This document shows positions 1,840-63,480 of a DNA stretch of 64,000 nucleotides, in pieces; within the stretch, counting starts at the first letter, position 1; each line of letters opens with the position of its first letter. The notes beneath the pieces were generated by a model. It worked only from the letters and a program-made list of their open reading frames with translations, did not search any database and was not told the origin of the DNA. The translations under genes and the position numbers were made by a program. This DNA is from Atriophallophorus winterbourni (Eukaryota > Platyhelminthes > Trematoda > Plagiorchiida > Microphallidae): positions 1 to 64,000 of the forward strand of contig JACCGJ010024172.1 of NCBI GenBank assembly GCA_013407085.1, read 5' to 3'.

Positions 1840-3734
1840 TCAGAGGTGTTGGTTGGCGTGCTACATTGTTATGTTCTCTGTCTGACAAAGGTTCTGTACC
1901 AGAACGGAATGGTTATCCAAATATGTTTAAGTGATTACATACAGGTTGTTTTCAATAATGGCCACACAATCCATCTCAAACATGAACAATTCAATCAAGG
2001 GAAGCTTACTTTTCGTTAATTCTCCAGCTTGACCACTTGAAAAATTTTTATTGAGAAATATCCATCATTTGTAAACGCTGAACTCTTATTGATCTTATTA
2101 TTTTCCTTTATTTATGTAATTCATGACGAAATTTTTTATCTTCATCTACTAAACACCTTTTCTTTCTTTTAATTGCAAAATGCGAGCTCCATATAAAATT
2201 CATTATTAGCAGGCATGCAAGGATTTATCTTAACTAATAGCTGTTTCGTATTGATTGCACTTTTTCCGAGTGTTTTTATACAATTTTCTCTCCACTATGA
2301 ATACACCATCGGTCCAAAACATAATCCAAGCAATTGCTATCACAAGCAATCTTTGATTTTCGAAAATGATCGAATTCACTGCATGCGGATCATCACCGTA
2401 CTATCTCTATCTGATACACGAAATCGACCGTCGGATGTGTGCGATGGAGATAATCTTTCATAACCATTGGTATAACCCAATTTACATATTTTTGGGCGCA
2501 TGTGCTCGGATATCTTTGTCATGCCAAACTTATCTAACACTGGATTATAAGCTTAAGTTGTTAAAGTTTGCAGCAGCTTCCCATTTGCTTGTTACATTAC
2601 ATTGCTTCACTTTCGGGCAAAATGTAATAGATTTGATATCACGTTCAATAATTAAACAAACATATGTAACCCAGCGACAACGCAAACGAAACCGAGTTCA
2701 CGGAACAAAGTTTGACCCGAATTTAGCGCAATGTTCAGCTCGTTTAAGACATCCCATCTATAATACTGCTCAAAGCATTGAGCGGCGAAAGTTGTTCATA
2801 TTAAGCAAAAAGTACTGAAGATAGTTTAGTTTTTAGTAACCATCTTCCGCAAAGTATGAAAATTAGTCTGTTTTAGCGTCTACTCGCACTTTTGTTGTTG
2901 TATGAGATCATTTTCTACAGTATACTTGAACACTGGCACACAAGTTCGCAACTTATCTGCTATTAATTCTATTATTAATACTCTATACATCCAAAGCATT
3001 TTGCCAGCCTGACACTTGCGGATTAAAATTGCGCAAACGTTAATTTTTTAAAAAAATTGAAGGCTGCTTTCTATTTCATAACTTTATCCGCGAACGCTTT
3101 TCCCACTAATGTAACTCAACATAATGCTAATTGGTCAATCCAATATTATGAGCAATTTAGAATGTCGTGGCTGAGAGCGTTGAGAATAATCCAGAAATAT
3201 GGTCGTCCCTTTTCAAATTACTATCGAAATGCCACTTTATATATAGGGCCCCCACTATGTATTTTGCTTGATGTTTCTGCTTCAGTTTTAAACATGAAGT
3301 ACAAATTTTGTTGCATATATTTAAAAGACATTATACAGTTTTCATAACAATGTTACGATAAAATATGTACAATCACTCATCACCAACCATAAATCTTCAA
3401 TACTGTCCGGTCGCATCAAGGAGCACTTCGAATTCGTTCGACAGAAGCAACTGGTCGAAAAATGGAATATAATTTTAATCGTATTATTTAAACTGGTACT
3501 TTATCACTTACTGCGAAATCTTAGTTCTGAGAGCTACACAGACGAATCGACCTACAGACATTTAGCATAACAAATAAATCACATAAAAATTTCAACTAAA
3601 CGAAATGTGTGAGCAGAGTGATTGCTCCTATTGCCAGATTCATCTGACGCATGAATTAATAATTTCGGTTACAGGTACGTCAATCACCATCCAAACTAAA
3701 AAAAGCATTTTTTCTTCAAAATGCAATTTCATAG
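1840..3734. other. No supported gene; possible retroelement debris
   Basis: Two long plus-strand frames overlap here (2,215-2,463 and 2,366-2,818), neither with recognisable motifs or splice signals. The segment lies upstream, in minus orientation, of the gypsy-like fragment at 1,485-1,838 and may be more of the same element. 2,820-3,734 shows nothing. Confidence 0.35.
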
Positions 3735-3953: not shown

Positions 3954-6013
3954 CTGTAGATATGGCAAATTCAGCATAGGAAATAACACGACAAATGCTG
4001 TCCATCTAATGCGATATTAACAAATTCAAGTTGTAATAAATAATGCCCATTTGCAAGCATTTCCATCACACAACCAACGACTGGTTTCGTGCTGCTTACA
4101 CTCATCAGGTAGGGACAGTAAGATAGGGTAGTGGGGTGTGTGATGGAAATGAATGCAAATGAGCATTTTGGTTCATGGTTATGGGTTTAACCCCATTATA
4201 CTTCAGTTTGGAAACAGGTGATTGAATAGGTTGGTCGTACCAGCCTCATCGAACAGTGGCATACAAGCACTACTTGTTCAATTTTTAACACATTTAAATC
4301 AATACAAGAAATACGCTGATCACATTTTATATCCTAGAATGACACCGAAAATAATCAATCGAGATCTACATGTAGATAATACTTGTAATATTTCAAATTA
4401 ATACAGCTCAAATACTGAATAGAAAGACAAAATTTGGAATATTATTGGACGAAAATTTAATGAAATAATTTTTTCGGAACTTATAAACAGACATTTTTTA
4501 AACTATCTTCTATCAACAATAGATAATGTCGAACTTATGGAAACGATTAAAGCTTATGCTGATTAAATTTTTATAGGATCTGGTAAAAAGTCATACTTGA
4601 ACTTTTCACAAGTTTCCTTGTTTATGATATCCGTCACCAAGAGTTGAAAATAGACGAAATTCAACAAACAAATAACATGAATAATAAAACAATGGATGGA
4701 CTGTAAACATTTTACCTTTCATCGGTCCAATGAATGTTCAACGTTAGAACGCCGGAGACATTGGGAATCCACTTCTGCAAGCCTTGAACACGGGGCATGA
4801 AGAATCGGAGACAATGGCGGCGAGAACATTTGCTGATTCGATACATCTACTACTTTTTGGACTGAGGAGTCATCACCACACCTTCTGCAATTTAATTTCA
4901 TTTGAAGATTTTCATTTCCATGTATATCAACACTGCTGAAATTATTTTCCTCCGTATCGTTCGAAGCAGCTGTTTCAAAGTTTCTTTTATTTAAATTTTC
5001 AGAGTATTTCGTCAAATTCTCCGGACAGCTAGTCGAACTCGTGGGCTCCCGATTTACAGATAATTGATCCGATTTCACTTTTGATTTTGATAGAGTGTTT
5101 TGACAGGAAGAAGTCAACCTTTCAGTTTCTTCTACCGATTGGTCGAAAGCGTTTATAAAACTAGGTGGAGAGGTCAACGAAGAAGATGAAATTGAAACTG
5201 GCTGCGAGTCTAGGGGCGATTCTGACTCAGTTGTCTTAACTGACTTGTACGGGATCGCTTTACCGTGAACGTTGGTCGGATAGTCTACGTACGTTTCACA
5301 AAGTTTGAACTTGATCTTTACTTGAAGCATTCGTTGACTCTCACGCAAATAGTGTAGCCATTCTTGCTGCATGACGTAACAACATTATGAATCATTTAAA
5401 ATTAAATGAAATTTATTTCAATTACTTCAATTTTATTCGACTCAGATCAAATGCAATGGTCTAGAGAGCAGGCAGCCGTACAAAAATCACAGAATATTAT
5501 AGGAACTACGACCAATGTAAGAAACGAAAACAGGATCGGTTGTCTTACAGAGCAATTTAACAATAAGGTAAAACCCATGGCGAAAAATTTGCTTTAGGTT
5601 GCACAGTGGGGTGACATGTGTAGATTTACGACAAAAATGTCATCAACAGTAAAGTATTGAGTGAGGTGCCATCAGAGACAATACATGAATCTTTCTCTTA
5701 TGCAAGCCCGTAGATTAAATCCAAATCGCAAAAAGTGATTTGTGGTACTCAAAATATTGTAAAACAAAATCAAATCCTCACAGAGACGACAACGTGGAAA
5801 ATCAAATAAGTTTGAGATAACGATTCACTCATTGTAGGGTTTCCAGGCGGTGTCCGGCGACAGGATTTCTAACTCGATTATATATTCTTTGTAAAGTCTC
5901 AACATCATTGGTTGAATAATAGCTATATACATGTTTCATGAATAAACTATTAAATTTGAACTTTTTCTTGCACCTACTTATACAAAAAATGATTTCACAC
6001 ATTGAATCGGAAT

Positions 6014-12000: not shown

Positions 12001-15000
12001 GATGTAATGATATATTTATATCCGTGAGTTCGACAAACAGTCTAAATTGCGAATTTCTCCATGAGGATGCATACATTTTAGCGGCGTTATTTACGCTCAT
12101 TTACCGTGACATTCGTTACAAATGATATTAATTACATACTACAGTCAAGGACTTTACACCACTAAATCATGCCCTACATTCGCAAAAGTACATTGTTTTA
12201 CTCGAAAGCCATTTTAGAAGTCAATAATCAACGTTAGTGTATTACCTACACGCCAAACGCAACAATTCAGACTCGAAAAAAGCAATATCCTGAACGGGAA
12301 CATTTGCGGTAACATAATGAAGGAAACGGAGACAGTAATCGTCAAGGTCAGTCGAACGCACCCGGTGCGACATGAGCAAGAAAAACTACACGATGAACCT
12401 CAAGGGGGTGATATAAGGCCGGATGTTTACCGCCTGCCACCTATTAACTTATGACCTGAGTCATTTGCATAATGACCCAGGAGTCGTCCGAAGAAGGTGC
12501 GCGTGTCACGCGATGTGTGCAAAATGTTCTTATATAAATAATCAGTTATGTGATTCTTCTTCTTCCATTGTTTCAAGCGCATGCGGAGCTTGATCTTACT
12601 GTCCCTACCTATTGAGTGCAAATAAGACGAAACTGGTTGTAGACTATGTGTGATGGAGATACATGCAAATGAGCATTTATGATAGGAATAAACGCTTTGT
12701 CCGGAACGTGTTGACGTCTCACTTGCTACACTAATATTAACCTGGTTCCAATATTCCTATAAGTAGTCATTAAATAGCGCCCGTTATTTGTCTTCGGAGC
12801 GCTTATTCGGCTCCGAGATGTATACTCGTTTTGATCTGTCTTTTTCTTTTTTAAATGGCTCGTGTTCGTTTATAAGCAAAATGAATAAAAATCATTATAG
12901 TTGCTGTTTTTTCTAGACAAGTTATTCATCAACAAATGTATTTTAGAAGATATTTTTATTTCGTAAAATCACATTGCTAAGCTAAAACATTCACCCACCT
13001 TTTTCGGTTGCTTCTTTATTTTCGTTATTAATAGAAAATCATCAAAAAGAAACGCGAAGGCTTGAAACATTTTTCCCCTATCTGAAAGTGGGATGGAATA
13101 GTAAATATGTTGTTAAAATAAATTATAAAGAAAAATTGATAAATGGAAATCTATTCTACATTTAAAACCGGAAGTTAAGATTTAACGATTATAATTCAAT
13201 CGTTGAAAATTTTCGGGAAAACGCAGATAACGCCAAATCAACTACATTTAAAGAAAAAAAATGATCCGCATACAAAATGAGCGGTTAAAACCGCGAAACC
13301 AGTCGTTTGCTTCCGTCCTGATTTTTGAACGACATATACTAGTTAATAATTAAAACGTACCTTTAACAAATTTAATCATCGTGCTGTTATTGGAACGTTA
13401 CAAAAATATACTAAACAGGTAACTGGGATGCATTGTACCGATGTGGGTCTCTGCTTAGTCATCACATGAAGGCTAAATTGGCGAATGAGGATTTATCCTC
13501 GAATTCGTAAATAATTGGGTCTAGACAAAAGTAAGAACGGCCTTTGAATATCAAGTCACGGATACACATACCTAATGTGCCGTAACAACCGCGAAACCAG
13601 TCGTGTGCTTCCGTCCTGCTTTTCGTACGTCATATACTACTTATTAATGAAATCTGACTTCCTACAAAAATATTGCTTGCTCTATCTCCAAAATGTTGTA
13701 AACCACACGAAAATGTTCCACTTGCGCACAGAAACCCTTAAGATGGGTGAACAGAATTGAATGCTCAATGGTTATTTACTTTTCTATTTAGTAATGTTTT
13801 CAAACACTACTAAACTGTTCAATACTGAATTTTCAGTAAGCATGGTGAACAAAATGTCAAATGAATTCCAAATAAATTCTATGAGCAAATCGCAAACTGA
13901 CCGCCGACCGCTAAATAACCTTCGTGTACCAATTGTCGCTTCGGATTAGCAAGCAGTCGTTCACAAGGTTGAGAGGAAAGGGTTTGCCTGAGGAAAGTTG
14001 GAATGAAGACACGAGGTTCCAATTCGGATATCGAGGGCCAAATTAGTTGAGACTGAATTCCTTGAAGTAGCTCAAAATTCTGCAACCAACGCATTTTGTC
14101 TTCCAGCGTTTCTCAGAAATAATAAGAAACAAGAAATTTGAATGTTGTAGCCAATGGAGCTCAGTAATTTATGCAAACCTTTACAGGATTATAGAAATTC
14201 ACTCGTTATATATACATAATTATTGATTTATTGGTGCTTTACTCAAATACTTAGAATATTGGGTTTTGTAAAATTATTTTGGTAGGCTGGCGTTTCGTCT
14301 CCAGTCCGATAGTTCGCTATATAATCAGCTTGACAGTTGTTCATATTGAAACAATGGGTTAGTTAATCAGATTTGACTGCTGTAAAGTGACTTATATGAG
14401 TGCTCAAGGAAAGAGATAAATTGAAAAAATCCGCAATTGCATGAATTTATATTACACACCCACACCCCAAGACTGGTTTTTGACGCTTGCATTCAGCAGT
14501 TAATAATAGTTAGACCAGAATCCGCAGATCTTTTAACGGTGGAGAAATAGTGAGCTTGGCAAATACTTGTAAGCCACTGTAAGATAATGGTTGGCACGAT
14601 CAACACACTTTTAGCTGTGGCTACACCGGTGGACATTAACAAACAATCGTATGATCGGTTTATTTATTTATATGTGTTTTACCGAAATGGCGCAGAGCAT
14701 TTGCCATGTTGTCCCGTTTGAACTCTCGTGGTTAGGGGCAACCGCAAGTTGCTTGTGAAGATTATGATGATGGTATAAAGCATGTGCGCACTAAATTATT
14801 TACTATATGGCAGTGAAACCTGGAATATCCCCACAAGAACCAAACGGTATCTGAATGTTTTACTTTTAAGGATCACAACTTGATCACATCGTGAATGAAA
14901 AAATATCAAATGCTTGAATTCGGTTTTAAAGTTGGTCTAATGAGCATGTGACCATTACTGCAACAACGCTGAATAAGCATATTGGGGCATGTGCAGAGAA

Positions 15001-18000: not shown

Positions 18001-21000
18001 TTGAATGAATAATCTCAATGGAACACTTACTCTTTCGAGTGGTGGGAGGAAGACGTTGACGCTACCGAATTCTGTCTCAAGTTGGCTCCGACACAACGCG
18101 GAAATCAAATCCCGACACAGGGCGTGGCTTCCCTTAATAAAAAATTTGAGGCGAATAATATATAAATATATATATATATGCAATTTGTTAAGGTCGGTCA
18201 AACGACATCAAAGTGTTGAGGGCTTGTAGGAATCAGGTTGTGGCTGATGAATCAGATCGATGTGGTACCTCGCAAAGACAGCTTGTAGCATTTATTTAAT
18301 ATCTAGGTTTGCCTAAACAAGATAATCATTACATTAATCTTTTTCATGTGCGTAATAAACGCTTGAGTAATTTTAATTTCAGCTACTTTGGAATAAGTGA
18401 GCATTTAGAATTATTGCGTTGTATTCTTTGTGGTAATCGAAACGCATTAGACGGTTTAACAGAAAACGAGAGAGGGAATGCGATTAACGTTGGCTCCATT
18501 CTTCTAGAAATGTAGGTCTACGTCGCCATAATAAATATAACCGGAGCTCGATTTGGCTTTCAATTACCGGCCATAGTATCAAGTTATACCATTTTTACAG
18601 AGAAGCTGCTCAACCTAAACCTACTGGGCTGCTCGGATCACGTTTTCTGAATTCTGCCCCATCAACTTCTCCAAAATACTCTATTTGCGAGGCCACTACT
18701 GAGTTACTATGAACTCATGATCGCCAAATCGCCACATGGATTGACAGTCAAAACCAGACTGGTAACCATGATGCACTTGTATGCCACTGTTGGATAAGGT
18801 TGGTACGACCATTTCAATCATATGTGCCGGAAAACGTGTAGACAGCGTTTAGACCCATGTCCATGAACAGCCGGTCGTAGGGTGGTTGCGTGATGGAAAT
18901 ACATGCAAACGAGCTATTTTTCATGATCATGGGTTTGAAACCTGTCTATACGTGCACCGGAACACACAGATTGATCGTACCAACGTTATCAAAAGTGGCA
19001 TACAAGCGCAACGTTTTTGACGATTCTTTCACTGTTTCAAGCGCATGCGGATCCGGATCCTACTGCCCCTACCTGATGAGTGCAAACCGCATGAAACCGG
19101 CTGTGGCGTGTGTGCATGATGGGAATCCCTGCAAATGAGCATTTTCAGAATAGTAGCGGTTCTAAATTCGATGATGTCCTTCATCCGGGTGGCTATACTG
19201 CGACTTGTATCACAATGGCTATTTTCGCTTGAAAATATATCATATAACGGTGTATAGTTACCATTTTGCAGTAAGTTTCTTCTTGAAGGGTCTAAATTAT
19301 TTAGTCATTACCGAGACGAATGCCGGGTAAAGCTTGTGAGACCTCATGGCAGTTAAAGCTACATGAAAGCTATCTTGTTGATTTTTCTCTAATTTTTGCA
19401 TGTTTCAACCGAGGTGTAGGTTCCTTTGCCGAGTGCATACTCTTTCATACATCGGTTTCCTTTTTGATCTTCGCCCTTCGCTAACTTCCATGATATCAGA
19501 TTATCATGTTTTTATGGCAATTATTGTTTTGGTATTTTTAACAGATGTATTGCTATCGCTGAAATGGATGATTATGATTATAATTAACATAATGATCATG
19601 ATAATGACGACTATAATGTTTGTGATTGTGATGATAAAGTTGATGAGGAATAATTAGCCTTGAACTGAAATGTAAATATCTTCGAATGAAGCTTGGACAT
19701 TATTTATTCTTCACACGTTCGACCTTATTACTGTGGCCATATCATAAGTTGGACACAGCTCTGGATTCCTACGATGAAATGGACGTGTCACACGTACAAC
19801 GCACTTCGATTACAGCGACGTCATTTTGATGAGCCTGAAAAACACTGCATTGACTCGGGTTTTTCTTTGTCGATGTATGTATCTATGATGTAAGAATCAA
19901 CCGATTCCGATTAAACTAACTCCGAGTGTCACATACCTAATTCATTAATTTCTATTCACTATTTTTTCAAGCTACGATGGATGTTCCTTAAAAATAGTGC
20001 ATTCGTCTTTTGTTTTTTTAGTGTATGGTCTTGGTTTCACTGCCATAAATTAAAACATGTAGTACGCATGCGCGGTTGGCCATCATGTTTTTCCTCACAG
20101 TCAACTTGCGGACTATCTAGACTCGAGACGGACAAGATGGCAGCAACTCTTCCGTATTCTCCAATCGCTTTAAATAGCTAAACAGGTTGATGTACCTTTA
20201 CTTATGTATAAATTTGTGGAACACTCAGTTACATTTAGAGAATTGTTAGATATTGCAATTTCAACATACAACAAAATCGAACGTGCGAATAATTTGAAGG
20301 CATACTCACATAGCACAGTTCATCTAAGTTTCCAAATAAATTCCCGGGTTCCACGAACATCAAATATCCATCAACCTGCAGCGTTTTCAAGGGTTCCATG
20401 AAACACTGTGAAGTAAGCTCAGTGTCATTATTTTACCGAATTCAAAGTAATCATATCAATAGCGTTCAAAATTTCTTAATGAGTGGATGTATATCCATTG
20501 CTACAAAAACTTACATCTTAAAACGAGGATAATTCAAAAGAAGTTCACGATAGAAAAGCTCATGCATTTCGTTGTGTGTATTGTGTTTATGTTGTTGACG
20601 AGTGGTGTACCAGAAAATCTTTTCAAGTACCGGGTAGAAATTTCGATAATTTCACTGATTTAAACTATGATAATTCTGATTTGTTGTCCCTACATGATGC
20701 TAAAACCATACCGCGGGTTATGCAGTTTGTTATCAATCTCCGTGTTAATGTTTGTAAACTAATGATAAATGAGGATTTATGAATTATTAAATAACGTTTT
20801 GAGCAAATCTCTTAGAGTTGGCTTTTATACAGTTTTGCTTCTGATACTGAAGCTGGATCAGAGCGAGTGACTAAGAATGCGCAGGTCATGTTAGGCGATA
20901 ATAATCATAAGATAGTCAGGCAATATTAGTATCAATAAATGCTCACCCCAGCTTGTCGTTCAATTCGCTAATGGTATTGAGAGCACGCGGGTGTGATCAG

Positions 21001-24000: not shown

Positions 24001-27000
24001 CAATGTTGGATTCTCATTCTTACGGGCACCTGATAACACCAACAATACAATTTCGTTCTACATCCGCTGGAAAACTGGTAATCGCAATATGTGTTGCTTC
24101 AATTCATAGTATAAGTTCGTCGGTCTTCACCGTTTTCTAACTTTTTGCGAAATTTAGGCTCATTTACAACAAACTTCGCTCAGACTGTGATAAGGGGCCG
24201 GTCGAACAAATTCAAGAATTTTTGAGTACTGGGTACCATTTTTTCATTGTCGAGCGAATATTAATTAAGGTAGAATTTGTCATAATTTTTTATATAAATT
24301 TTATAACCTAGTTAGATTTATGCACAATTATCACATGTTTAGCCGTGCATGTGTGAACCGCAGTGTCAATTGACCTTTACCTATTTTAATGTGCTGGGTA
24401 AATATGCTGATTGATTTTGTCATTGTCTATAATAATTGGCACTCCTAGGATTTCAATAAGCTGTTTAGTCAAGCAACAATTATAGGTGAGGGTTGGAGTG
24501 GTACTTAATGACGTGTCCTGTTCGCACTTATACCCTTGGTCTGACGAAGCTTGTGTCAGAAGTTAAACGTTACTTGAAAACTGCACCAATCGATTGTTTT
24601 TTTTTCAAGTTTTGATTTCATTAATCCAACAGTACAACTTGCGACGTTTACCTGCGCTACTACAACAAACATTTCGCTGAATCATTCATTTTGACGCTAG
24701 AATGTTCAACATGAAGCATCCACGTTCTATCGTTTTTTCTTTCTCGCACATAAATCGCGATAGCTTTCTGCTTTATTGTTCAGACAGATATTGCATAAGG
24801 TTTTATTGTTTCCAAGGCTGTGATTCATGATCATGCAACCCCTACATTATCAAAGTAAATGTCACGAAACCAGCCGGGTGTGATTGTATGCAAAATATGA
24901 AAGTTTATAATTTGTTCGATATGCTTACATTATCACCTGTTACCTTCCAATCAGTTATTAAGAACCCACTGATTAATGGCTTATCAATAATTGATTATTT
25001 ATTTGTCATTTACTAAAACTAAACGAGTCCGAACAAAACGTGAATTTTTGCAAGAGATAAAAATGCATAGTAATACGAAGTAAATAAATAAATGTACCCC
25101 TATCACCCCTGAACAAACTGCTGAGCATTTAATATTTGAGGAGATAAAATAACGTTCATTCCATTTGATGGAATACATGGTTGTGTTGTTGTTTGCATTC
25201 TTCAGTTGATATCGACCATGGATGAATATCACAATCGCATGATGGTTTCAAGCTTCGCAGCTTTTAGACTGATTAAACAGTCCCATTCGGGAGTGACTAT
25301 CTTTCCCGCAGTAGTCAGCGGTACTCGATCAATCTGCGTCAGTTGAACGCCGACGGCGTGATCTGCGTACAGTAGCCAAGAGCAGTATCTGCTCTTCACC
25401 AGTTTGGACATGACTCTTCTCACAGTGCCTCCAAATTGAGCGGTCAAGAGCAAGCTCTTCACGTCTCATATGGTCAATGCCGAGAGATTTCATATCTTTC
25501 TTGCCAACGTCTTTGTATCGCGAGTGTATGAAGGTTGACTTCTGATTTCAACTCACATGTTTGTGTATGGTTTAAATTATATTGTAGCCTACGATTTCAC
25601 GATCACAGCCCATTTGCTCCATGTCAATTCACTTTAGATTTTATAATAATTCATGAAAACGTTCAGGTCAAGTTAGATGCATTGATATTTTTCTAATAGT
25701 CATCATTGTAAACTTACTCTGAAGGATTCTAAGAAATGATCGTCGAATTGTTGAGGACGGATTTCTCGAAGTGCTCGACTCAATTCGGAAACATCATCTT
25801 TCGTTTTCGAATATCGTCCTATCTAATCGAGAGAGAAAATTTCACCTTCCATAAAACTAGCATATTAATTAGAATATTCTATTAAAAAATATAGAGCATT
25901 ATTTTACAAAACATTGATCGTTTATTTTATTGTTGAATATAATGGTTAAAACACCAACTATCGCATTGATGTTAAATTACTCTAATGTTTACATGAATGC
26001 TCGCATGAATGCACTAATTGTTTAATAGCCCAAAGTAAAGTCAGTTAACCAGTGTCGCACTGATTTGCAGGGTCAATAAAAGTAATTTTCAAGGCAATAT
26101 AAAAATATAGTGAATTTTCTGTTACAAATTTAAATAGGACGCTAACCTTGACAATTTATCATTTTATTATAAGCATTTGGTAATTTCCAAAGTTCAATTA
26201 CTTAAAGGCAAGCGGATATCTATCGTAATGTCCATACTTGATGAGAACAAACAGGACGGCGGTCTTCCGCGGTTTTCAGGCCGAAACGGCTTTCTGTTTA
26301 TTCGCCGTAGTCAAATCGAGATAATAAGTTTAGCTTCAATTTGGTGGAAGCAGCAAAAAGCTGGTCAAAATATACAGTTTAATAAGATTCAGCTAGGAAC
26401 ACCGTGTGTAAATACGAATTCAAAAAGTGTTTCTCGAACAAACTCTCAAGGTGCCTAAAATGATCACTGAATCCTCCGCATTCAAACGACATAATCAGCT
26501 TCTGTCTGTTTGCCGTCATCAAGTGGAGACAGTAACGATTACGACCAGTGAGCCTTCGTTAAAAAGGATCGGTACAATGAACCACTCTATTTTAAATATC
26601 AATCATCACTATATACAGTATTTTTTCTTAATGCACAGAAGAAATATTATTGGTGTTTCGCTTCACATTCAGCTTCAAATATTATGTCGAAAATATTCTC
26701 GTAAATTATTCCGGTAAGTTTTCTTTCCCAGAAATCTATACATTGTTGCTGTGCCAAATTGCAAGACAAAGTTCTTGACAACATTATTTTGCTAAGTTTA
26801 ATGAACTCTAACAATATTGATCAGGCCATGTAACTTACCAGTTTTTTCAATGTTATATTTCCCTTTTTCACACCTGCAATTACCAAATAGTTATTTTAAA
26901 TACATGCACACTATTATTTATTTAAACAACACTGATACAAAAGGCTTATTTGCATGCATTTCCATCACACACACCCCGCGACCGGTTTCATGCTGTTTAC

Positions 27001-30000
27001 ACTCATCGAGTAGGGATAGTAGGATCAGGATCAGCATGTGCTTAAAACAGTGGTAGCAATACTTGGTGCAATGTTATTAGTCCGAGGTATCGTTGGTTCT
27101 ATTTTGTTGTGATTGTGAATCGGAAAATATATTAACTTAATCCTCCGAGACCGGGTACCGATAATAGTTGGATAAATAACAACGAGAACCTATCACCCTG
27201 CTCTTTGTTGGATGTTATATTGTGGGATTCGTAGGTGAACACAATTAGCGTTTAAACGTTTTACCTCGTTGATGAGTCAAATCTCAATCGGCAAGTGGGT
27301 TGAAATGAGTAGGATACGATTAGTGTTGGAGTTGAAGCATATGCAATCAATGTAATGGACAGCAAGCCCAGATATACCGGCGGGCCTCGAGTAAACTGAC
27401 GTGATTCCTTCTAATCGTGCCTTACATTGAAGCTATGACATGTCATGACTGAGCAAAGATCAGGCCGTGTCGAATCCCATTTATCGAGTATGAACAGAAC
27501 ATGTACACGGTCATGAACGAAATGCGAATTATTACCCACGGATGCGCATCGAGAGCCAATTTTAAATTCATTGTTGTCAAAACTTTGTGTGAGCGCGCCA
27601 GAGTATATTCCATGAGGCAACTGTAGTTAATGACCGGTACTAAGAGACGTTAAAGATGTCATTTGGGTTCGACCACGAATTAGATAAAGCTTGATACTTG
27701 ATTAGATCTTGATGCATTTTGTAGGAAGTATCTGTGAGTACTATTATTTTTCGCCGTTCATATGGTACAATAATAACTCGAATTGTTTTGACCATATTTT
27801 GTCACGTAAATAACTTTAATCGTCAAGACGATTAAACCAAAGGTAACAATTACAGTTCAAATGTATTGAACATGACCCTATCATAGATGTTTAATTGATG
27901 TAATTATTACATTGGGCAAAGAACGGAGACTAAGCGTCTAGAATTAAAGCATACATTTATCTAAATGCGACATTGGGACATGACAATATTATTTTCAATA
28001 AATTCTGCGCGGTAGATTATTGTCCTTTGTCACTTTGACACGTTTCAACGCGCGCTTGCAGATTTACAAAAAAATATATTTTGTCCAAGCTTCATTTCTA
28101 TCCAATTCGAATTTTAATAAACATAAAAGCCAATCGATAAATAATTCAAAAATGTAACTCGGAATTGAATATTTGGGTGTTTTTGTGTTTTATTTATCCA
28201 GGGACTATTTTTCTGCTACATTTGAAAGACGCTTTGGTTTCGGTTGAATACAGGAGCAGACAGGCGTGCATGAGGAAAATTGTTGAAAAATCATTTTCTG
28301 AATCATTTTAGAGCAATTAACCGAAGCGAACTCATAGTTGATTGTCAAAATTATCAATTTATAAGAGGTTTTCAATAACGTGAACCGTAAAATACTCTGT
28401 ATTACTTGAAAGTAACTGTCGTGCATATTGTTAACGAGCATAATACAAATATTCTATCGAAACTCGACGGTGTATGCACATTAATAATACGATATGGATA
28501 CTTTCTCATTCAGAATCTGAGCAGGCGTTGGCCTTTTTAATTACTTTTTGTTATTAACTGATCAGAGTTTCCGCCTCCACTCCTTCTTAGTCATTAAAAG
28601 TACAACAGTCAAGCTATACACAGCTACGCGCACTAAGAGTGACATGAAATTGAATGTCCAACTGAAGGAACATTAACAATTGAACAAAAGTTCAATCATG
28701 CTTTTTAATAACAAACTCGCAGTATCACATAGAAAACTACTGAATCTGGAAGTCAGTTATACATGTAAAACCATAAAGTCGGAAAACTTACTTGAGCTTT
28801 GCTGAACTTGAATATTTTGATTTTGACCCGTCAGAGTATGGAATGTGTGATGCTTAAGGAGCAAACGTTTCTCTCTTTCTGGTATTACACAAACGCTCAT
28901 CTCCTCGAGATTTTCCGTTTCATTCGCCATTAATCTTCCACTACTGTAATTTCAAGACGGTCAGATAAATAGACAATTCGATGTTTGTTGAAAACGTGCG
29001 TATCAATAACTACACCACCATTAACAAAAGTTGATAAACATAAAAACAAATAAATTATTCATTCGCTGATATGATGTACTTCATGATTCTAATTATTTCA
29101 AGAATGGTCCGTAATAACATAATATTGGCTTACTGAGAAAATTATTTAAAGATAATTCTCATCCTAAATGCAAATTTAACTAAAACTCTTCATGCATTTC
29201 AATCACACACACACCACAAAACCAGTTTATAGTTTGGCTCATCCGGTAGACAATACGTTCATGTCTAAAATAGTGAAACATGGTGAAAAACGTTTGAAAT
29301 TTTAATCCACTTGCGATATAGCCGACACGACCGTCCACTTTAATCACACGTGCCCAATCACGTAAAACACTTAAACACTTGGCTTGAACATTTGCGGTTG
29401 AATAAAGCATCCGCATTTGCATGCATGTGATGAAAATGAATTATAACATAAAAAGCACATTTGATTGCATTTCCATCCCACACATCCCACGACCGGTTTC
29501 GTGCTGTTTGCAGTCATCAGGTAGGGACAGTAAGATCATGATCCGCATGCGTTTGAAACAGTGGAGGAATGGTAAACAAGTACGGCTTGTATGCCAGCGT
29601 TGGATAAGGCTGGTACGACCAACCTGTTCAATCGCGTGTCCAAACACATGTATATTGAGGTTAAACCCATAACCATGAACAAAAATGCTCATTTGCATTG
29701 ATTTCCATCATACACCCCGCGAATGTAAATAAAGATTTTCATTCAATCCCACGGCTTTATTTATTGATATGTCAGTGGGCACATTCGAAATTTATCTGGC
29801 ATTATGTATTCCAGACTCGAAAGTGAACATTCACACATTCGAGCTTATCCGTGTTCGAACCCATCAGATGTGCTCATGTGGATTACTTTCGAACGTCATT
29901 ATTCCGGTACAAATATGCATCATGTTTTGATTTTGTGGCAAAATTGCAACACAATAATGCGTGAGGGTTTGGAAGAGTGTGCTTTACTGAAAAAATATGC

Positions 30001-33000: not shown

Positions 33001-36000
33001 TGCTTGATGCGAAATACCGAAAAGAAATTCCTTCGGTTTAATCGAGTATTTTATTGTCAAATTTAATTGATTTCAATTGTGATCGTGAGGTAGGAGGGTT
33101 TGTGTTGAATGTGATTTATATGAAGATCGTTTAATTTATTGCCAATAAATCAACATTGGTGACATTGAAATATTTACAAAAATTTTATTCACATAAAATT
33201 GTTGTTTTATGGGTATGCGCTTAGATAAGGTATCAAACAAGTTTACTTCGTATGTAACTTGAGTTTTTTATGTTTAATCTCTCATATTAAATAACTATAC
33301 AAATTCGAGGGATTGAAAAGTGTTAATGAGATGTCTATGATTATGAGCTCTGGAAATTTTAGAAGTATATGATTCAAAGATTGATATTTCACGAATATTT
33401 TGAATTTTTGTAACGTTTGACATTTGTGACGTTATTGTTTTACTGTACATAACAATTGACCTTGATACACACTTCCCGTTGATTCGTGTTCCGTGATTGC
33501 TTCCTCTGTACCTTCGTGCACTTTTTGGCTACCGCGATAAATCTTTCATCTCCTGTGCCTTTTCTCCGACATTCTTGGGGACATTATTATAGTGGTCAAT
33601 CTACTACAAATTGGTGAGCCCGACGTGATACACGAATCCTTCGTCTACTACAAATTGGTGAGCCCAAGGTGATACACGAATCTTTCGTGAACTACAAATT
33701 GGTGAGCCCCACATACACGAATCCTTCGTGTATCTTATCCGGTACGTCATTTTCCCGCTTTACATCACAGTTTTCAGGTATTTTTTTTACTTCGTTAAAT
33801 CGTGCATTTTCGCATCATTTGATCCTAATTATCATGAGTGAATCTAAACGCGTTATTGTGGCATTGACGGTCATCACAATACCCAGTTTTATTCCACAGG
33901 ACCATGAGTATTGGTTTAATGTTTTAGAAACTGAATTCAGTTCTAAAAATATAATTGATGACTCCGCCAAGTTTCCACATTTAACGCAGAAACTCTCTGC
34001 GGATGTGTTGTTACAGGCACGCGATGCGGTCCTGACTGCACCCATAGGTGACCGCTACCGTATCGTCAAACAAGCCGTGATTTCTCGCACGGTTCCGTCT
34101 GAACGATCTAGGCTACAGCAGCTGTTCGGCAAACTTAGAAATTGCCAACAAAAAGCCTACTACCAAACTAACGGAGATGCCCCGCCTGCTAGGGTCATCA
34201 CACATGGACGAGTCCTTACTAAAGGAACTATGGCTCCAGCGCTTACCTGAGTGCGTGCAACCCATTTTAGTTACTGCAAAAGCACTCTGGTATCTGAGCT
34301 TTCGGAAATGGCAGACAGCATCGCTAAGTGTATCCGTCCCTATCCAGATGCCCATATTTCCACGGTAACCGCAGGCGAGCACGCACACATGGTAATATAA
34401 CTGGAGTCAGCAATGCGGATCTGTTGCCCGAGGTTGCGGCTTCACGCAATGAGGTTCAAAACCTCACACTCAACTATAAGTCACGATGTCGCACCCCATC
34501 CCGCCGACACTCGAGTAGTCACACTCGGTCACCCGTTTGCTGGATACATCGGAAATACGGCGATGATGCGCAGCGTTGCATTAAACCTTGCGTCTATCGC
34601 ACATCGCCAGCTGGAAACCTCCGGGCCGACAGCTAACGATGAATACTGTCGTCGGCCCGAAGAAATTATGTCGTCTTTTAAACATCGAGGATAAATCCAC
34701 AGGTCTGCGTGACGGACCGAAAGCCAGTAGAGACGTTCGAAAAAGCGCTGAAGCGTGCGGTAATTGTCAACGCTCGATAATCCACCAAAACACAAAAAGC
34801 TCATTAGAAGCTTTCGTCGAACCGGATAAACGTTTCTCGAACATCCACGTAGACCTCGTTGGCCCGTTACCACCTTCAAGTGGCTATACATATGCCTCCC
34901 CTGATAGGCAATCACCATTTGCCTATGGAGATTACGTGGCGCGCTTGTGACACGGTATGAGTTTCCACCCACCATCTTCGCGACTTTAAGCAAAACAGCC
35001 CCACATGCCGAAGGAGTTGGTACATTGCCAGTATGTCTTTTTCCGAAACAACATGGTGAAGAAACTTCTTCACCCTCCTTATGCTGGACCATTTCAGATA
35101 ATTCGGCGGTCCCAAAAAACAGTTGTGATTGACCGCGCCGGTCGACACGACACGGTCTCGATTGACAGAGTCAAACTGGCATTCATGGACAATACGGTCG
35201 ACTCAGCTAATCCGCCATATTTAAAATCAGCACCACCGGTGATAACCCCTACCTTGCCCTCTACTATCTCAACTCCTGCCAGCACAACAGCTAGGCGAGC
35301 GAAACGGCAAGCCGTAAGGTTCGCCGACTATGTAGTAAATTTTTAACGGGTTATTATTACTTGGTATATGCTCGTGCATGTTTTGCATACCTCATCACTA
35401 TAACTCGTTCGTGGCCTTAAACCCATGCACCAGAGATTATTTTTTCCCGCTCCTCAGGAACACATGCACTTCCCGCTGTGGAAGACGTGATACGCGCCAC
35501 GCACGGATCGCCGACGCTTGTCGCCATCCTACCCGGTAGCCCGAAATACACGCATCCATCGTGTATCCCTTCTGAGACACATGCACCTCCCGCCGTGGAG
35601 ACCGTGGCACACGCCACCCGCGGATGACCGACGCTTGACGCCATCCTATCCAGAATCCCCAACCATGAGCACACCGCCCAACACGATATCCATCAGACAA
35701 GGTCCGTACAAGCCAGACTACACGCCACTCAGCTTTCTCTAGGCGATGCCGTTCGCCATCGACCCTGGGGGTGCAGGAAATTCTCAGCACGGACTATGTT
35801 TTCGAAACTTCTCGTTCTATGTTGTCAAGCCTACAGATGTGCCTACATCTGCTCCTATTGGGTTCATACTAAGACCATGTCAGACTGGCGATTCCCGCTA
35901 GCAGCACGTTCACCCTATGTGATTCGGCTCCTGCAGCACGTTCACTCCATGTGAGACGTGACTCGGCTTAGTATTCATCGGTTTTTCGTGTATCCTACCC

Positions 36001-39000
36001 TGGTCACCACCGACAATCGACCCATGCAGATCAAGTGCCTTCGATGACTTCGAAGTGACTGGTTGCTAAGAGACTATGTTCCAGCCTGGAACGCCCTGAC
36101 ACCGCTTGGCCAGTTCAATTGTCAATTCCTGATCAGAAGTCTCCTCTGACCAGACTTCTTGGAAGGGGGCCATGTGACAACATTGTTTTACTGTACATAA
36201 CAATTGACCTTGTTACACACTTCCTGTTGATTCGTGTTCCGTGATTGCTTCCTCTGTACCTTCGTGCACCTTTTGGTTACCGATATAAATCTTCCTTCTA
36301 CTGTGCCTTTTCTCTGACATTCTTGGGGACATTATTCTAGTGGTCAATCTACTACACATTTTACTTCCTTAAAGTTCGGAGAAAAAAATTTGTTGTATCT
36401 CAGAGTCTTACTGGTAGCACGACAGAATGTTTCTCAATCATGGTATACCCGTTATGCTAGAGAAAGCGATTCTTATATGCGAATGAATCAATAAACTTAT
36501 TGTTTCAAGCGCTAATTAAGTGACAATAACTCAACGGTAAAAATTTACACATAAATCTGCTAAATTGAACTGAGTGTGGACTACCGACGAAAAATGTGGT
36601 GTAGGTCTAGCGGCGCCATTTCCAAATTCGATTTTCAGGCACGAATTTGGTAAAACATGAAATGTTCGACAAAATCGGAAAATAAAAATTCATTAGGAAA
36701 TGCCATCTAAAAGATTTTTCACTATTAATTTCAATGTTTTAGTATCTTAATCGTGATACGTGATTGAAAGTTTGAAAATGTATGGGATAATTCAAATAAA
36801 AGATATGAAAGATATTCTCAGTTAAACACGAATTAGAGAGAAATTTAATGCCGCACAAAATTGATACGTTGATAAGTATTTATTTAATTTTCGTTCGAAT
36901 GCGACAGACTTATGAATAATTTACTTACACAATTTTAATTTTTGAAATTTAAAGGCGTTTTAGTGGCTCCACTCAAGTTACGTTGACTTGTATTCACGAA
37001 ACTTATACCGTTTTATTTGAATCCGTTTCAGAATATATATCTAGATGATGGTTAATATTTTTACACAGAATCCATGTTGAAAATTTAAATATATTATTTA
37101 TTGAATGTTCTCCATCTCCTCAAGTTTCAGTAGCCGGAAATCTTTTTGTCCATTTTAGAAAATCAGCAACAATATAAAAATGGACAGTTTTATGATGTTT
37201 GATGAAGCCGGAGCAAATTTTATTTGTGCTTTATAATTTGACAATATTCAATCTAGCAATCCTAAAAATCGAATTACACTTCAACTTATTCACTTTGTGT
37301 ATAAACGCTCAACGGTACCGAGAGCGTACATAAAGTTTTCCAGCAAGAAATAAGCAGAATTTCGATTACAACCTATACTGAAATTATTTTATTTATTTAG
37401 TGAACTGCTGACCGATTTGAGATAAAAGCTCACCGTAATGCTTTCTTCACTCGTTTGTAAAAGACCTGCAAAAAAGATATGAAAAACACCGCAATACACT
37501 TCAGATTTAGCTGTTTATAATACTTTTTGAAGTTTTTTCAACACATAATAAGCTTTCAAACGCTCACACTGACATCAAAAAATATTTGCATTATATTTGA
37601 TTTAAATGTTGCGATGAGTGATTAAAGCTATGGTGCATCAGCTGCCTATATAGGAACTTATGATAATCAGATTATCTATTTTGCTGGTAGGATGTATCCT
37701 TAAAGAAGCTGATCACAATAAAAAAATAACGGTTTAAACTGCCTAAGCTTGCAATGCTTTTTACGCAGTGGTACTCACATCAACCTTACATACATACATT
37801 CATCCATATGTATACATGTATGAATGTATGTATGTTTGTATGTATGTATGTATGTATGTAAGCATGCATGCATGCATGCATGCATGTATGTATGTATGTA
37901 TGTATGTATGTATGTATGTACGTATGTATGTATGTATGTATGTATGTATGTATGTATGTATGTATGTATGTATGTATGTATGTATGTATATCAGAACAAA
38001 AGTCTGTTATGTGATGTGGTTAATATTTAAAGCTTTCCTATTAACTTTATACAGAGATATTACACCTATGTACACCTGATTAATGTCACTTTTTATAAAA
38101 TGTAAATAGAATAGTAAAAGTACCATATCTGTCTTTTTTATATAATTTAGAGTAGGAAGAATTTTTAATCTAGTAAAATCTTCTTTCTATCTCTATATAT
38201 GTAGAATATTTACAGTATTAAAATTGCTTCCTACTCTGAAGTATAAACAAGAGATAATCGAATGAATTAAAATCAAATTACTTCACATTAAAAAGTAAAG
38301 AACTATTTTGTTCATAACAACTTGCAACAGAGAAGCAAACTATATTTCATTTTTTAGCCATTCTTCGCAAACCTTCATCTTCTCACTCACCCCTGAAAAT
38401 GATATTTTAATGGTAAAATATAATTCTCCGTATACCGGACACTTGAATATTCGTTCTTGTTATTGGTGACATAAAAGCTTAATTGTTTTATAATTACTAT
38501 TTCTTTTCATACGAGTAATATTTCTGGATTTAATATAAATATCTACATTTTGACAACGTATGACAGTAAAAGCTGAACGGTCTACGCAATTCACAAATGG
38601 AATCTGATTACTTTTAATTTAAAAAGCATTCGCCGTATCTTGAACATATCGTGGATGTACAAAGTAACGAATTCTGATGTGCTTTCTAAAGCTTGTCTAC
38701 AGAGCATAGTCACACTACTAAGATAGCGCAACCTCTGATGGCTGTTAATATGTAAAGAATATAAAATGGCCGTATTTCAAAGTATCTGCTCTCTGGAGAA
38801 CTAAAATAAGGAAGTCAACCATTGGGCAGACTGCACTTGTAGTACATGCTGTTGTTGTTGGCCACCTTCTGTCGATGTCGGCCATGGATGTATATCATCA
38901 GCGCATGAGATTTTCATGTTCCACAGCTTTTCGAATGAAAAAAAGAGTTCGTTTGGGGGGACAATTTTCCCCACCGCGCTAACTGCGATAGACAGTACTC

Positions 39001-45000: not shown

Positions 45001-48000
45001 CAGATGGTGCTTAACATTTGACCGAATTTGCGAAGATTAATCGCGATTTATAAAGAAACAACAAAATGTAAATTCACCACAACAATGGTGATTTTCATCA
45101 AATCGTAAACGGTTGCATGTTCAGGCGTTTAACAAGCTAACACATAAAATACATATTATCCCATTTGTTAGAAAATAGGTACTCGTAAAATCATTCGTTA
45201 AACGGAGATAATTCAATGGGTTCAACATTCATGTTTTTCAATTTTATTTATCAATGGATGGCTCTGCATTATTCAAAGATTTTGAAATAAACTAATTAAA
45301 ACACGCAGTGGAATGTAATGACATATCAAATCTTTGATAGTCTTTCAAACAACGCTGAAGTCTGTTAGGTGAACGATAATCGTTAACTCTGATTTCGCAG
45401 CATAGATGACTTACAAAATACTCATTTTCATGCATTTTCATCATACACAAATACCGGCTTCCTGCTTTTTTCACACATCAGGTAGTGCGAGTAGAATCAG
45501 TATCCACATGTCTGGAACAGTTTACAAATGGCATAGTAGGTGTGAACTTGTGAGCCATTTTTGATTAGGTTTCATAGGACCAACCTGTTCAATCACATCA
45601 TGTGTGTGGGTAAATGTGAGTTGCTTTCAATCGTGGCAACGAACTCCGATTGCTTTATTGCATGATGATGTACATTTTACTTGCTGGGTGAGTTGCGTTC
45701 ATCCATGCCAGCAAATTGCGATTTGTTTTATCATGCACTGGCCAACATTCTACTTGTTTCCGCCTGCTTTCTCTAATCTAGCAACCAGCTTGATTTTCGG
45801 TTTAATCAGAATTTGCGTGCATTGGTTTTGTTGTACTATAAATAAATACAATGTCCTTGAAAGACACTTTTGACGTTTGACATGTGACATCTGTTTAAAC
45901 TTTTCATTCCGGCATTGCTCTGTTTTCCACACTGCTGAGTTAAAGATTGCGCAACAAATGTATCTAAATTACAACATCATATGGTAAACAACCTCAATCG
46001 TCACGGCGATAAATAAGTTTGCCATTGACATTAATTTTGTACTTTTAATGAATTATATTCTAGGGTCGATAAATATCATTAAATACATTATAAACTAACT
46101 GAATGTTTTGCATTCACTGATACTTAATAGATAATTGAATTGCATGCAATAGTTACAAATAACCAATGATAGCTGATACTGGGCTAATAATAAAGTAAAG
46201 AAATATACTGCTGTATATACTGTATATCTGTCCATTGAGAAAAAAACTTTTAAATTCACATCAGCATTTTCATCAAATCATTGCATAAAATTTTGATTAT
46301 TGTTCAATGCCTTCAAAAAATAAATGAATATCAGGAACTTTAATTAGCTCAGTATTGATGCATATAAAACGGATTTATTTAACATTAAAAGAACCAACTG
46401 TTTTTTAGTGCTTCTTATAACGTTGTTAATGTGCCGGTTTCTCTAATTTGTTTACTCATCTGATTTTTCATGACAATGTTGCCATTAAGTCAAATAGATG
46501 GAATATTCTGTTAGTTCAGAAGTCATTGTGTTTTCAATTCAATCGCCAAAATTCGAGGACGCCGGTAATGCAGATATCTTATCATTAGCACATTTAACGA
46601 CAAAGTGACACTTTCTGCACTCGTTCAGGTGATTTATATACTTCAGTTTCACGAAAAGCTACTAGTATTTCTATGGTCACTGTACTTTTTCATTTATTTC
46701 AATGAATTCAGTTGCCGAAGCTGAACATATTTCTGATCGGCTTATGTTGGAATGCACATATTCTTTCCTCTATATATCGTGGAGCTTGCAGATGATATGC
46801 TGAACATTACCCTTCAACACTACACAAGAGTGGTAAGAGCCGAAACAAATTTTGACAACCATAGCTATCCCAAATAAATCGAAGTTATGTAGTATTGCAT
46901 GCGATGAACAAATTTACCAACTATCGAACCATATGCACTACGTCGTGGTCGGTAACGAGATGATGAGACTTTGGAGTATATCTTTTGGCATGAAATACGT
47001 TGACAAATCAGAACAAAATAAAAACAGGAACAGATATTTCGAGGAACGTATTGTGGTAACAGGATTTAAATATATAAGATGAGCATATATTTCAACTAAT
47101 TTGAGTTCTTTTGCGATGTATGATTTGTGGCTGAACGTTATTAGCAGTGGGAAGGTTGACCTCAAATCTGAATCGGGACACAGACGTTTTATACTCGAAG
47201 CCTGAGTAAACAACATTCGCTAGGTTCGGAACAGCGGTTTGATTTGATTTACCAGACGTAACCCCTTGAATATAAACGACCAGCCAAAAGTAAATTGATG
47301 TGAGATAGGTTTGTTCGCTGCAGAAACGATACAGTATAGGGAAATCAATTTAAACGCACATCGCTTTTTTGCAAAATGATGGGGATACACAAAACAATCT
47401 TACGCAAATGAAACTCCAAGTTATTTGGGAAAAGATAAGCTTAGATAATAATTAGGCTCAAGATTCATTCTCGCAACTTATTACAGAGAAATGATTTAAA
47501 TTCTTGAAATAAAAGTTGCAATGGATTATGCAACAATATTTAAAAACGACGTAAATGAAAACTTCGGATCTTTCGCGAAATAAATCATAGGAGATTTGGG
47601 AGAGACCCTTCTGGTAATGTCGGAAGCCACGATGGTAGTCTAATATGAATTCTTTTTATTGAGGTTACCCATCATACGCATTCGACACATTTGTGTTTTA
47701 TCGTGGTGGTGGTGGTGACGTTCAGTCCGATTGGTTAACACGTTTGTCTTATGTGTGGTTATCGGCGGATTAATCACCGCGGATGTTCATTAAGTGAAAG
47801 ATGCCTCATCTCAATCACTCCAATAGACTGGTTGTAAAAATTCTTCGCAATAAACTGAGGTAAACGAACGGATTGGCAAAGCGAATTCCCCTTTGTTCAG
47901 TTTGTACACCCGTATCTTGGGCAAACGAATATGTACGGTTATTAAAACAATGGTAGTATAAAGCACAGAGTATGAAATGCCTCGATGCATGAGAATGAAG

Positions 48001-50346: not shown

Positions 50347-51239
50347 TATGGATAATGTAATAATTCCAATGGCTGTTATTATCGCAACCACACTGACCGT
50401 TTTACAAAAAAGATCATACACGTAATCCGGGCCCGGTCGATAAAAGTTTCACTGGTAGCATATCCGAATTTTGTACACGGACCCGCTGGCCTTTTCAGCT
50501 GTTCCCGCTTTTGTGCGGCTGTTCACGTAAGTTTCTTGTGCAAATGTCGTGCAAGATGTGTGTGCGATTTGACTGTCACGTGACATGGTGTTTTGCACAT
50601 CGAAACATATGTGTGTTCCATTAAACGCGAACATAATTTACTGGATGAGCTTATAATAAACGGAACTGACATGTTCAAGTAATGGTAATAAATGTTCAAA
50701 GTAACCGAATCATCATACGAATGGGTTAATTGTTTTTCGAAAGTTTTGTTATTCGGTGGTGAAAGTGGGGGGAAAGTGGGAATTCGATGGCGTCAAAATG
50801 GTTCAGGATCGGGAATAATTTGTGTTATTATTTGTGATAAAGTCATGTCCATCAATGTCGATATCAATATTGACTTGAGCTGGTAGTGAGTCTGTTTAAC
50901 GTTTTCAAGTATAAAAAATTAAGAATTTGGTATCTGGTCTTATGGTGCCATGTGAACTTGGATTAAGTTGCTGACAAGCTTATAAAACAAAATAGAAAAT
51001 ACTATCTTTGTTAAGTTGTTGACGTTTTGAGAAATATGTTTAAAATAATTATGGTAATGATGAAATTATCGATTCATTTACATAGGACTACAATTTTTCG
51101 CTTTATGCATAATTGAACCGCGAATGCACGTCAACCAAGAGAGATGCATATTTACGGTATGATTTTTGCCATAGTTATTTTTAATAGCATTCTAAATAAT
51201 TTTTAATAGCATTCTAATAATATTTTCCACAGTCTGTTC

Positions 51240-51355
51240 GAATGTCAGGTCACGGATACTCTAACCTGATGAGCGGAATAACCGCGAAACTGGCCGTGTT
51301 CTTCCGTCCTGCTTTTCGAACATCATGCACTACTTATTAATACAATCTGAAGGGA
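51240..51355 (+). repeat. Family-2 hammerhead repeat, single copy
   Basis: From GTCACGGATACTCTAAC through the ribozyme to CTTCCGTCCTGCTTTTCG and ACTACTTATTAATACAATC, it aligns with 13,554-13,665. Homology stops soon after ACAATCTGA. Confidence 0.8.
51266..51295 (+). ncRNA. Hammerhead ribozyme core, family 2, intact CTGATGA and GAAA
   Basis: CTGATGAG-CGG-AATAA-CCG-CGAAAC-TGGCC. Stem II is G-C rich (GCGG/CCGC) with an AATAA loop. Both invariant blocks are intact. The expected CCAGTC is TGGCC, so the cleavage triplet has mutated. Distal stem I (ACGG with CCGT) is kept. Confidence 0.7.
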
Positions 51356-62700: not shown

Positions 62701-62711
62701 AGGGGGGGGGG
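62701..62711. repeat. Poly-G run
   Basis: An interruption of the LINE by nine or ten consecutive G, unusual in this AT-rich window and close to a frame break. Confidence 0.8.
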
Positions 62712-63334
62712 TAAATCATTTTATTACAACAGAAAGAGGATCGGGTCCTAGCACAGATCCTTGTGGACTCCACTGGTGGTTTTTGAACGTTTGGGATAGC
62801 GCTCCTTACTTTACTTGGGCGTCGCGACCTGACAATCGTCGCACACCATGGAGGAGTGGATCACATATTCTAAACGCATCAGTTTTTAAAGAAGCAAATG
62901 ATGATTGACTCGGTCAAAAGCTTTCGAAATACTAGGTAACAGACGTGGATGCAAGAACTTCTATCCAACTCATTTGTCCAGTCGTCTAACGCTATGAAAG
63001 ATTCGTTAGACAAGAGCGATGAGATCGAAATCCATACTGCGCTGGCGAAAACAAATTATGCGATGCAAAGTGTGCAACCATTCTTTCCATGATCTTAGCA
63101 ATAACAGGTAAAAGTGTGACGGGACGATAATTTGCAGCGTCGGATCGGCAACTGCCTTTGAAAATAGGTGTTATCACGCCGGACTCCCAATCTTTCGGTT
63201 CAACTCGCTTAACAACGAATAGTTAACAGGCTGGAGATCATAATCATGAAAAAAACTACCCATAATCTATTCTCACCGATTCTGTACACAACAAACTAAC
63301 TTTATTTTTTCCTAAAACAATATCTTTATTTGCA

Positions 63335-63480
63335 TTCTTTTCCCTCACAAAACCCTGCACGACCGGTTTTCGTGCTGTTTTGCACTCATGCAGGTATGGA
63401 CAGTCCAGATCATGATCCGCCTGCCGCTTGAAAACAGCCTTATCCAACAGTGGCATACAACGCTCCTTGTTTATTTTTTC
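63335..63480 (-). repeat. Family-1 hammerhead repeat inserted in a LINE
   Basis: Ribozyme region GACCGGTTTTCGTGCTG at 63,361, GATCATGATCCGCCTGCC, CAGCCTTATCCAACAGTGG and CATACAACGCTCCTTG are recognisable. Compared with other copies it carries several single-base additions. Both sides continue the same LINE RT. Confidence 0.75.
63361..63393 (-). ncRNA. Hammerhead ribozyme core, family 1, with single-base insertions
   Basis: On the minus strand CTGCATGAG-TGCAAAACAGCAC-GAAAA-CCGGTC. CTGATGA has an extra C, and GAAA and the loop have an extra A each. Stem II (GTGC/GCAC), the ACCGGT stem III and the GTC triplet are otherwise intact. Confidence 0.55.

Follow-up and report, generated by a model that had tools for sequence, protein, structure and literature searches.

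A dispersed repeat of the trematode Atriophallophorus winterbourni carries a type I hammerhead motif and resembles noncoding metazoan retrozymes

In the portions of the published accounts consulted here, metazoan non-LTR retrozymes are tandem, noncoding units of 150 to 450 bp with type I hammerheads, a GC content below 50%, and target-site duplications (TSDs) longer than 4 bp (PMC7229834). They make circular RNAs, and their describers name LINEs or Penelope-like elements as candidate helpers for copying these into DNA. The Penelope-like protein PAc has been found in vitro to start reverse transcription at two internal RNA sites and to cut and extend both DNA strands, a mechanism that accounts for a 30- to 40-bp tail; ribozyme cleavage is not needed for insertion in vitro (PMC11167929). 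In schistosomes, repeats of the SM-alpha type have a tRNA-derived part beside the hammerhead (PMC2770079, PMC8490949, PMC4918200), and in newts a satellite hammerhead with a very short stem III and a palindromic tetraloop acts as a dimer (PMC6155905, PMC7229834).

The window analyzed here, 64,000 nucleotides of contig JACCGJ010024172.1 (positions 1 to 64,000), contains a dispersed repeat, termed family 1, that carries a type I hammerhead motif. An nhmmer profile made from eight seed segments (threshold E<1e-3) retrieves 18 matches on both strands of the window and none in each of 20 shuffled windows, in agreement with an earlier note that had counted seven or more copies on both strands; blastn likewise finds copies on both strands. 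The least diverged copy (91% identity to the seed consensus, K2P 0.09), which the note had placed at 29460..29720, is refined to 29445-29720 on the minus strand (profile positions 1-277, E 2.6e-89) and comprises one full unit counted from the ribozyme cut position, then the hammerhead and the tail. Instead of the 245 bp given in the note, the unit measures 231 nt in the window profile and ~232-233 nt in the genome, where the hammerheads of locus L021 lie 233 nt apart, and after it comes a ~41-nt tail in which the unit start recurs. The consensus of six window copies, CCCTAC-CTGATGA-GTGC-AAACA-GCAC-GAAACCGGTC-GTGGGG, agrees with the common block described previously, with CCCTAC before it and GTGGGG after it.

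In the 29445-29720 copy, the hammerhead motif (stem I strands, CTGATGA, stem II, GAAA, CCGGT, and C) occupies 29485..29526 on the minus strand, and the cut predicted from the motif falls between 29491 and 29490. The tail past the cut, 29450..29490, ends at a common 3' end that we call site A. The pattern CTGATGA-N13-GAAACCGGTC at 29520-29491 (minus strand) is the sole exact match in the window and occurs in 0/100 shuffles. Both core blocks and the GTC triplet are kept in this copy, as had been claimed; its hammerhead as a whole is not intact, the basal pair of stem II being a C.C mismatch and GTGGGG being altered to GTGGGA. At least one defect was seen by eye in each of the nine aligned window hammerheads, and no Rfam hammerhead is found in the window, either at the gathering threshold or at E up to 10. 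We attribute the latter to decay of the window copies, since copies elsewhere in the genome do match RF00163.

Directly downstream of the 29445-29720 copy lies an older, decayed copy (29166..29426, minus strand; K2P 0.36), which its age marks as a separate insertion; a tandem dimer at 29.2-29.7 kb arising as a single insertion was rejected for this difference in age (K2P 0.09 versus 0.36). A full unit with its tail is present on the plus strand at 18884..19152 (E 4.8e-78), and its inverted 5' segment (18758..18869, minus strand) has its outer end at a second recurrent end point, site B. An inverted insertion near 4 kb consists of a part with the hammerhead (4032..4128, minus strand) and an inverted half (4131..4289, plus strand) that starts at the cut position and ends at site B, the two being about equally diverged (K2P 0.12 and 0.11). 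The copy at 2379..2571 (plus strand; adjoining matches with E 3.9e-9 and 5e-8) extends across the hammerhead and on into the following unit, with its 3' end at site B. Further copies are 5' truncated (45406..45600, minus strand, E 6.9e-49), short, reaching from the site B region to site A (26935..27061, minus strand, E 8e-39; 12556..12684, plus strand, E 4.7e-36), or decayed (14424..14636, minus strand, E 2.1e-19). Another short copy at 63314..63434 (minus strand, E 5.2e-27) is joined to an inverted 5' segment (63433..63479, plus strand) whose outer end is again site B, and this insertion is flanked by an A-rich 11-nt repeat, GAAAAAATAAA.

Beyond the window, a search of the genome (537,331,230 bases) gave 5,739 first-look candidates, of which the best 40 were scored. 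Because the 39 loci fetched are those that best match the window copy, they are biased toward full units; 34 were kept after exclusion of the look-alikes L017, L028, L037, L040, and L046. L020 and L039 have flanks in common; both were kept for the end and TSD counts, and L039 was dropped from the counts of private variants and young-copy pairs. The consensus of 45 genome units is an intact type I hammerhead, with stem I CCCUAC/GUGGGG, a stem II of GUGC/GCAC capped by the loop AAACA, and a stem III in which CCGG closes A-U. The assignment to type I with a minimal stem III made in the earlier note thus holds at the level of the family, and so, as far as the sequences go, the interpretation as a hammerhead repeat is supported at this level. 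A 232-nt reference was edited by hand from this consensus by adding GT and removing one gap column. The 34 loci hold 13 exact 42-nt ribozymes and 37 matches to CTGATGA..GAAACCGGTC; among the loci fetched, the best sense segments match the consensus at 86-96% identity. Units are tandem, from 1.16 to at least 4.6 per locus, with a main run of fewer than two units in 28/34 loci. Searches with exact patterns gave no match in viral contigs or in prokaryote genomes.

The covariance-model match anticipated earlier is lacking in the window and present among genome copies. In a scan of 20 of the 34 loci, RF00163 gives 29 matches at E up to 10 in 17 loci and reaches E<0.05 in 16, one match lying above the cut-off of 34 (L024, 34.9 bits); two further loci of the 20 show weak HH9 matches (23.9 and 23.4 bits, cut-off 52). 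A separate RF00163 search of the genome retrieved another family-1 copy above the cut-off (L074, 37.2 bits). The stems and loops of the RF00163 consensus differ from those of family 1, in which the CUGANGA and GAAA core with a cleavable triplet is present.

To gauge abundance, we used a 200-kb sample of 20 stretches of 10 kb (L048-L067), taken from contigs of 98-171 kb picked out of the family-1 hits; unlike the 39 loci, these stretches were not selected by best match to the window copy. It holds 36 loci covering 2.45% of its bases, which, if the sample is typical, would give a rough figure of ~97,000 family-1 loci in the genome. Short copies are common among the decayed copies of this sample.

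Folding and covariation give a mixed picture of the ribozyme. The minimum-energy fold of a single consensus hammerhead keeps stems I and II and pairs the core CUG with CGG; it has -19.6 kcal/mol versus -8.5 kcal/mol for the hammerhead fold, energies that ignore tertiary contacts, and 24/200 shuffles fold as well. When two family-1 consensus hammerheads are cofolded, a double hammerhead with a six-pair stem III results, at an energy that is ordinary (83/300 shuffles as low). The compensatory changes looked for in the stems exist in part. In an alignment of 79 genome matches fitted to the model, and therefore leaning toward the structure, double changes occur in 10/14 pairs, with 0/500 shuffles as good and slid controls reaching up to 6. 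The double changes inspected sit in divergent copies, stem I being fully re-paired in L014:1432 and L033:1117 with defects elsewhere in these copies. Among young copies aligned pairwise, the two double changes are not above the shuffles (maximum 3), and the six window copies show no covariation beyond shuffles. More generally, divergent copies (L014:1432, L026:623, L033:1117, L047:1388, and 26484-26547 on the minus strand of the window) have stem I changed to CUCCAC or CCUCAC, some of them with a GGC/GCC stem II. Folded as a circle, the unit is predicted to pair with itself, as is also predicted for metazoan non-LTR retrozymes, with a z score of -2.19 (2/100 shuffles as low); this fold, a circular rod with site A facing site B, shows no covariation and was not used.

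At the 33 loci with a free 3' end, the sense 3' ends fall at site A (unit positions 38-54) in 25 cases, at site B (145-160) in 5, and elsewhere in 3; one of these last three is L022, where an older neighboring copy was taken as the main one and the younger segment ends at 43. The outer ends of 13 adjacent inverted 5' segments lie at A in 3, at B in 7, and elsewhere in 3. Of the 28 free 3' ends carried by the 30 segments of at least 30 bits in the 200-kb sample, 13 fall at A and 4 at B; another 11 lie at profile positions 241-259, in the tail short of A, and are probably decayed ends, which leaves 0/28 elsewhere. Half of the same segments (15/30) start at profile positions 146-181, next to site B. 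A recognition motif shared by A and B was sought and rejected, 774/2000 shuffles being as good. Among 32 loci (L021 and L022 are omitted from this count), 12 are bounded by TSDs of 8-14 bp, and matches of at least 8 bp occur in 1.5% of mismatched flank pairs. Eight of the 12 TSD pairs enclose an inverted segment; a duplication around both inverted and sense segments implies that the two came from one insertion event at that place.

Possible traces of the ribozyme and of the template can also be read in these copies. At 4/34 loci (L018, L023, L027, and L032; P about 0.03), the sense 5' end is no more than ~3 nt away from the cut; in L018 and L027 an inverted segment abuts this end. Two segments of the window likewise begin at the cut. 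This is modest evidence that cut RNA may have been copied. For copies extending from A backward across the cut, the template must have been an uncut multimer or a circle. Units within a locus share 0.049 of private variants versus 0.009 between loci, a mild enrichment that gives weak support to one template having been copied repeatedly.

Set beside the described systems, family 1 is closest to the metazoan non-LTR retrozymes of Cervera and de la Pena (2020), with which it agrees in unit length, hammerhead, GC content (0.46), and TSDs. We know of no sequence common to family 1 and the described metazoan retrozymes. The two fixed 3' ends and the inverted 5' segments distinguish family 1, being absent from the parts of the retrozyme description consulted (PMC7229834). 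The PAc element resembles it in anatomy only, both having a hammerhead, tandem or partial-tandem copies, and a tail of ~40 bp; the end traces of family 1 in turn resemble what would be left by the two internal starts and the priming on both strands seen with PAc in vitro (PMC11167929). The PAc sites bound the 30- to 40-bp tail, whereas site B of family 1 lies ~124 nt upstream of A, and the Penelope-like open reading frame with reverse transcriptase and GIY-YIG domains is absent from the noncoding family-1 unit. Since this unit is only ~232 nt long, family 1 can at most be a nonautonomous client of Penelope-like elements. The newt satellite hammerhead is likened to it by architecture, in a host that is unrelated. 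Like SM-alpha and Sj-alpha of schistosomes, family 1 is dispersed, with a type I hammerhead and thousands of copies (PMC8490949, PMC2770079, PMC4918200). We file it as a probable new metazoan non-LTR retrozyme that would work like a Penelope-like client; it may already have an entry in a repeat library.

That family 1 differs from SM-alpha, as the earlier note had supposed, is borne out by a separate repeat in the same genome. The RF00163 search of the genome gave 96,317 candidates; among the best 74, which were scored, at least 32 match, at least 27 of them over the cut-off, and 0/14 control genomes match. Six of seven matches read (L068-L073, 301 bases each) belong to this third hammerhead repeat, at 37.5-41.9 bits. 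A tRNA-like B box is visible by eye in four of the six (L068, L070, L072, and L073), on which ARAGORN is nonetheless silent; it also reports no tRNA in the window, L012, or L021. L071 contains a long inverted copy. By the tRNA-like B box beside the hammerhead, the third repeat appears SM-alpha-like, being likened to SM-alpha by description, and family 1 is distinct from, and coexists with, this SM-alpha-like family.

The window contains another type I hammerhead-like motif, family 2, with a GCGG/CCGC stem II at 51237..51350 (plus strand; cmsearch E 1.3e-5), which is 82% identical to a copy at 13543..13657 (plus strand) with a damaged core and a paired stem I; a further copy lies 298 bp upstream of the latter in the same orientation (13263..13354, plus strand). 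Family 2 is unrelated to family 1 outside the hammerhead. Its stem II pairs throughout in the 51-kb copy, a paired stem I is confined to the 13.5-kb copy, and the cofold procedure yields no double hammerhead for it. Its copies have a common 3' end ~50 nt past the cut. A relation of the family-2 tail to the family-1 unit was dropped, as shuffles were as good in 13/500 (c51), 188/500 (c13b), and 336/500 (c13a) cases. Elsewhere in the window, 33600-34247 (plus strand) is a gag-like frame of LTR-retrotransposon type (DUF7041), preceded by a 44-bp repeat that occurs in three copies and includes TGGTGAGCCCAACGTGA, which resembles a tRNA-Trp primer-binding site; neither this frame nor the host frame has matches in the protein database. 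A TATG microsatellite occupies 37807-37989, with weak Rfam microRNA matches.

On the basis of these observations, we consider it likely that family 1 is a noncoding retroelement of the metazoan retrozyme type, inserted by an enzyme that initiates at A and B. The tandem units, TSDs, and two fixed 3' ends recast what the earlier note had proposed as a possible satellite or SINE. RNA of tandem units would be cut by the type I hammerhead, with two hammerheads probably acting as a dimer, as in newts, because the palindrome CCGG closes a stem III of just one or two pairs. Uncut multimers or reclosed circles would then serve as the template, and a reverse transcriptase from another element would start inside the RNA, at A (~41 nt past the cut) or B (~150), priming from a nick in either DNA strand. 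Insertions made in this way would differ in length, end on the 3' side at A or B, have inverted 5' segments that likewise begin at A or B, and be flanked by TSDs of 8-14 bp.

The same copies could have arisen otherwise. In the first instance, a LINE acting on a SINE-like element and producing the inverted 5' segments by ordinary twin priming would fit the 8- to 14-bp TSDs and the 5' inversions, and broken LINE-like reverse transcriptase frames are found in the window itself at 60956-63200 (minus strand; a weak RVT_1 match, E 0.0033, the rest by eye). In ordinary twin priming, however, the inner priming point varies, while 10 of 13 inverted segments here start at A or B, where sense copies also end, and the multi-unit copies require a multimeric or circular template. 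Even with the 15-bp TSDs of Nematostella hammerhead repeats having been read as LINE-like (PMC4918200), we regard this origin as unlikely. Spread of tandem satellite DNA by recombination, with the hammerhead as a passenger, would explain units in tandem at up to at least 4.6 per locus; in most loci the main run falls short of two units, and the separate sites, the TSDs at 12/32 loci, and the fixed ends all speak against it, making it highly improbable. It is rather doubtful, too, that family 1 is a fossil whose hammerhead was active in an ancestor and no longer acts: the damage in all nine aligned window hammerheads and the 86-96% identity of even the best genome sense segments point that way, and the 13 exact ribozymes in 34 loci argue against it.

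If the A/B-initiating enzyme of the retrozyme-type reading comes from another element, the most likely helper by comparison with described systems would be a Penelope-like element, linked to family 1 by the manner of insertion rather than by sequence. More specifically, a paired Penelope-like enzyme might start at two fixed points of a circular RNA and extend both DNA strands, yielding rolling-circle copies that are often joined to an inverted copy, a scheme that we advance tentatively. Candidate GIY-YIG domains are encoded in the genome, with at least 17 matches over the cut-off when the best 150 of 1,370 candidates were scored; these are weak (E 4.5e-4 to 9.5e-4), and the profile is unspecific, as 12/14 control genomes also match. 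One such locus, L075, has five protein matches, in the tapeworms Sparganum, Spirometra, and Schistocephalus; it yields a GIY-YIG match, a scan of two of its five listed frames revealed no reverse transcriptase, and a hammerhead of family 1 is absent. A Pfam scan of 25 window frames found no GIY-YIG. The GIY-YIG matches in control genomes, together with the LINE-like reading of TSDs (PMC4918200), led us to lower the weight of this circular-RNA, Penelope-like scheme and to raise that of the LINE alternative.

Among the articles found on hammerhead ribozymes in tapeworms (cestodes), none, judged by title and the start of the abstract, concerns such an element. The end sites, inverted segments, and TSDs of family 1 provide a readable trace of how a retrozyme is inserted into DNA, the step for which LINEs or Penelope-like elements have been named as candidate helpers of animal retrozymes (PMC7229834). 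If the circular-RNA, Penelope-like reading is true, it would join retrozymes and Penelope-like elements in one mobile system, and that joint system would fill roughly 2% of a flatworm genome.
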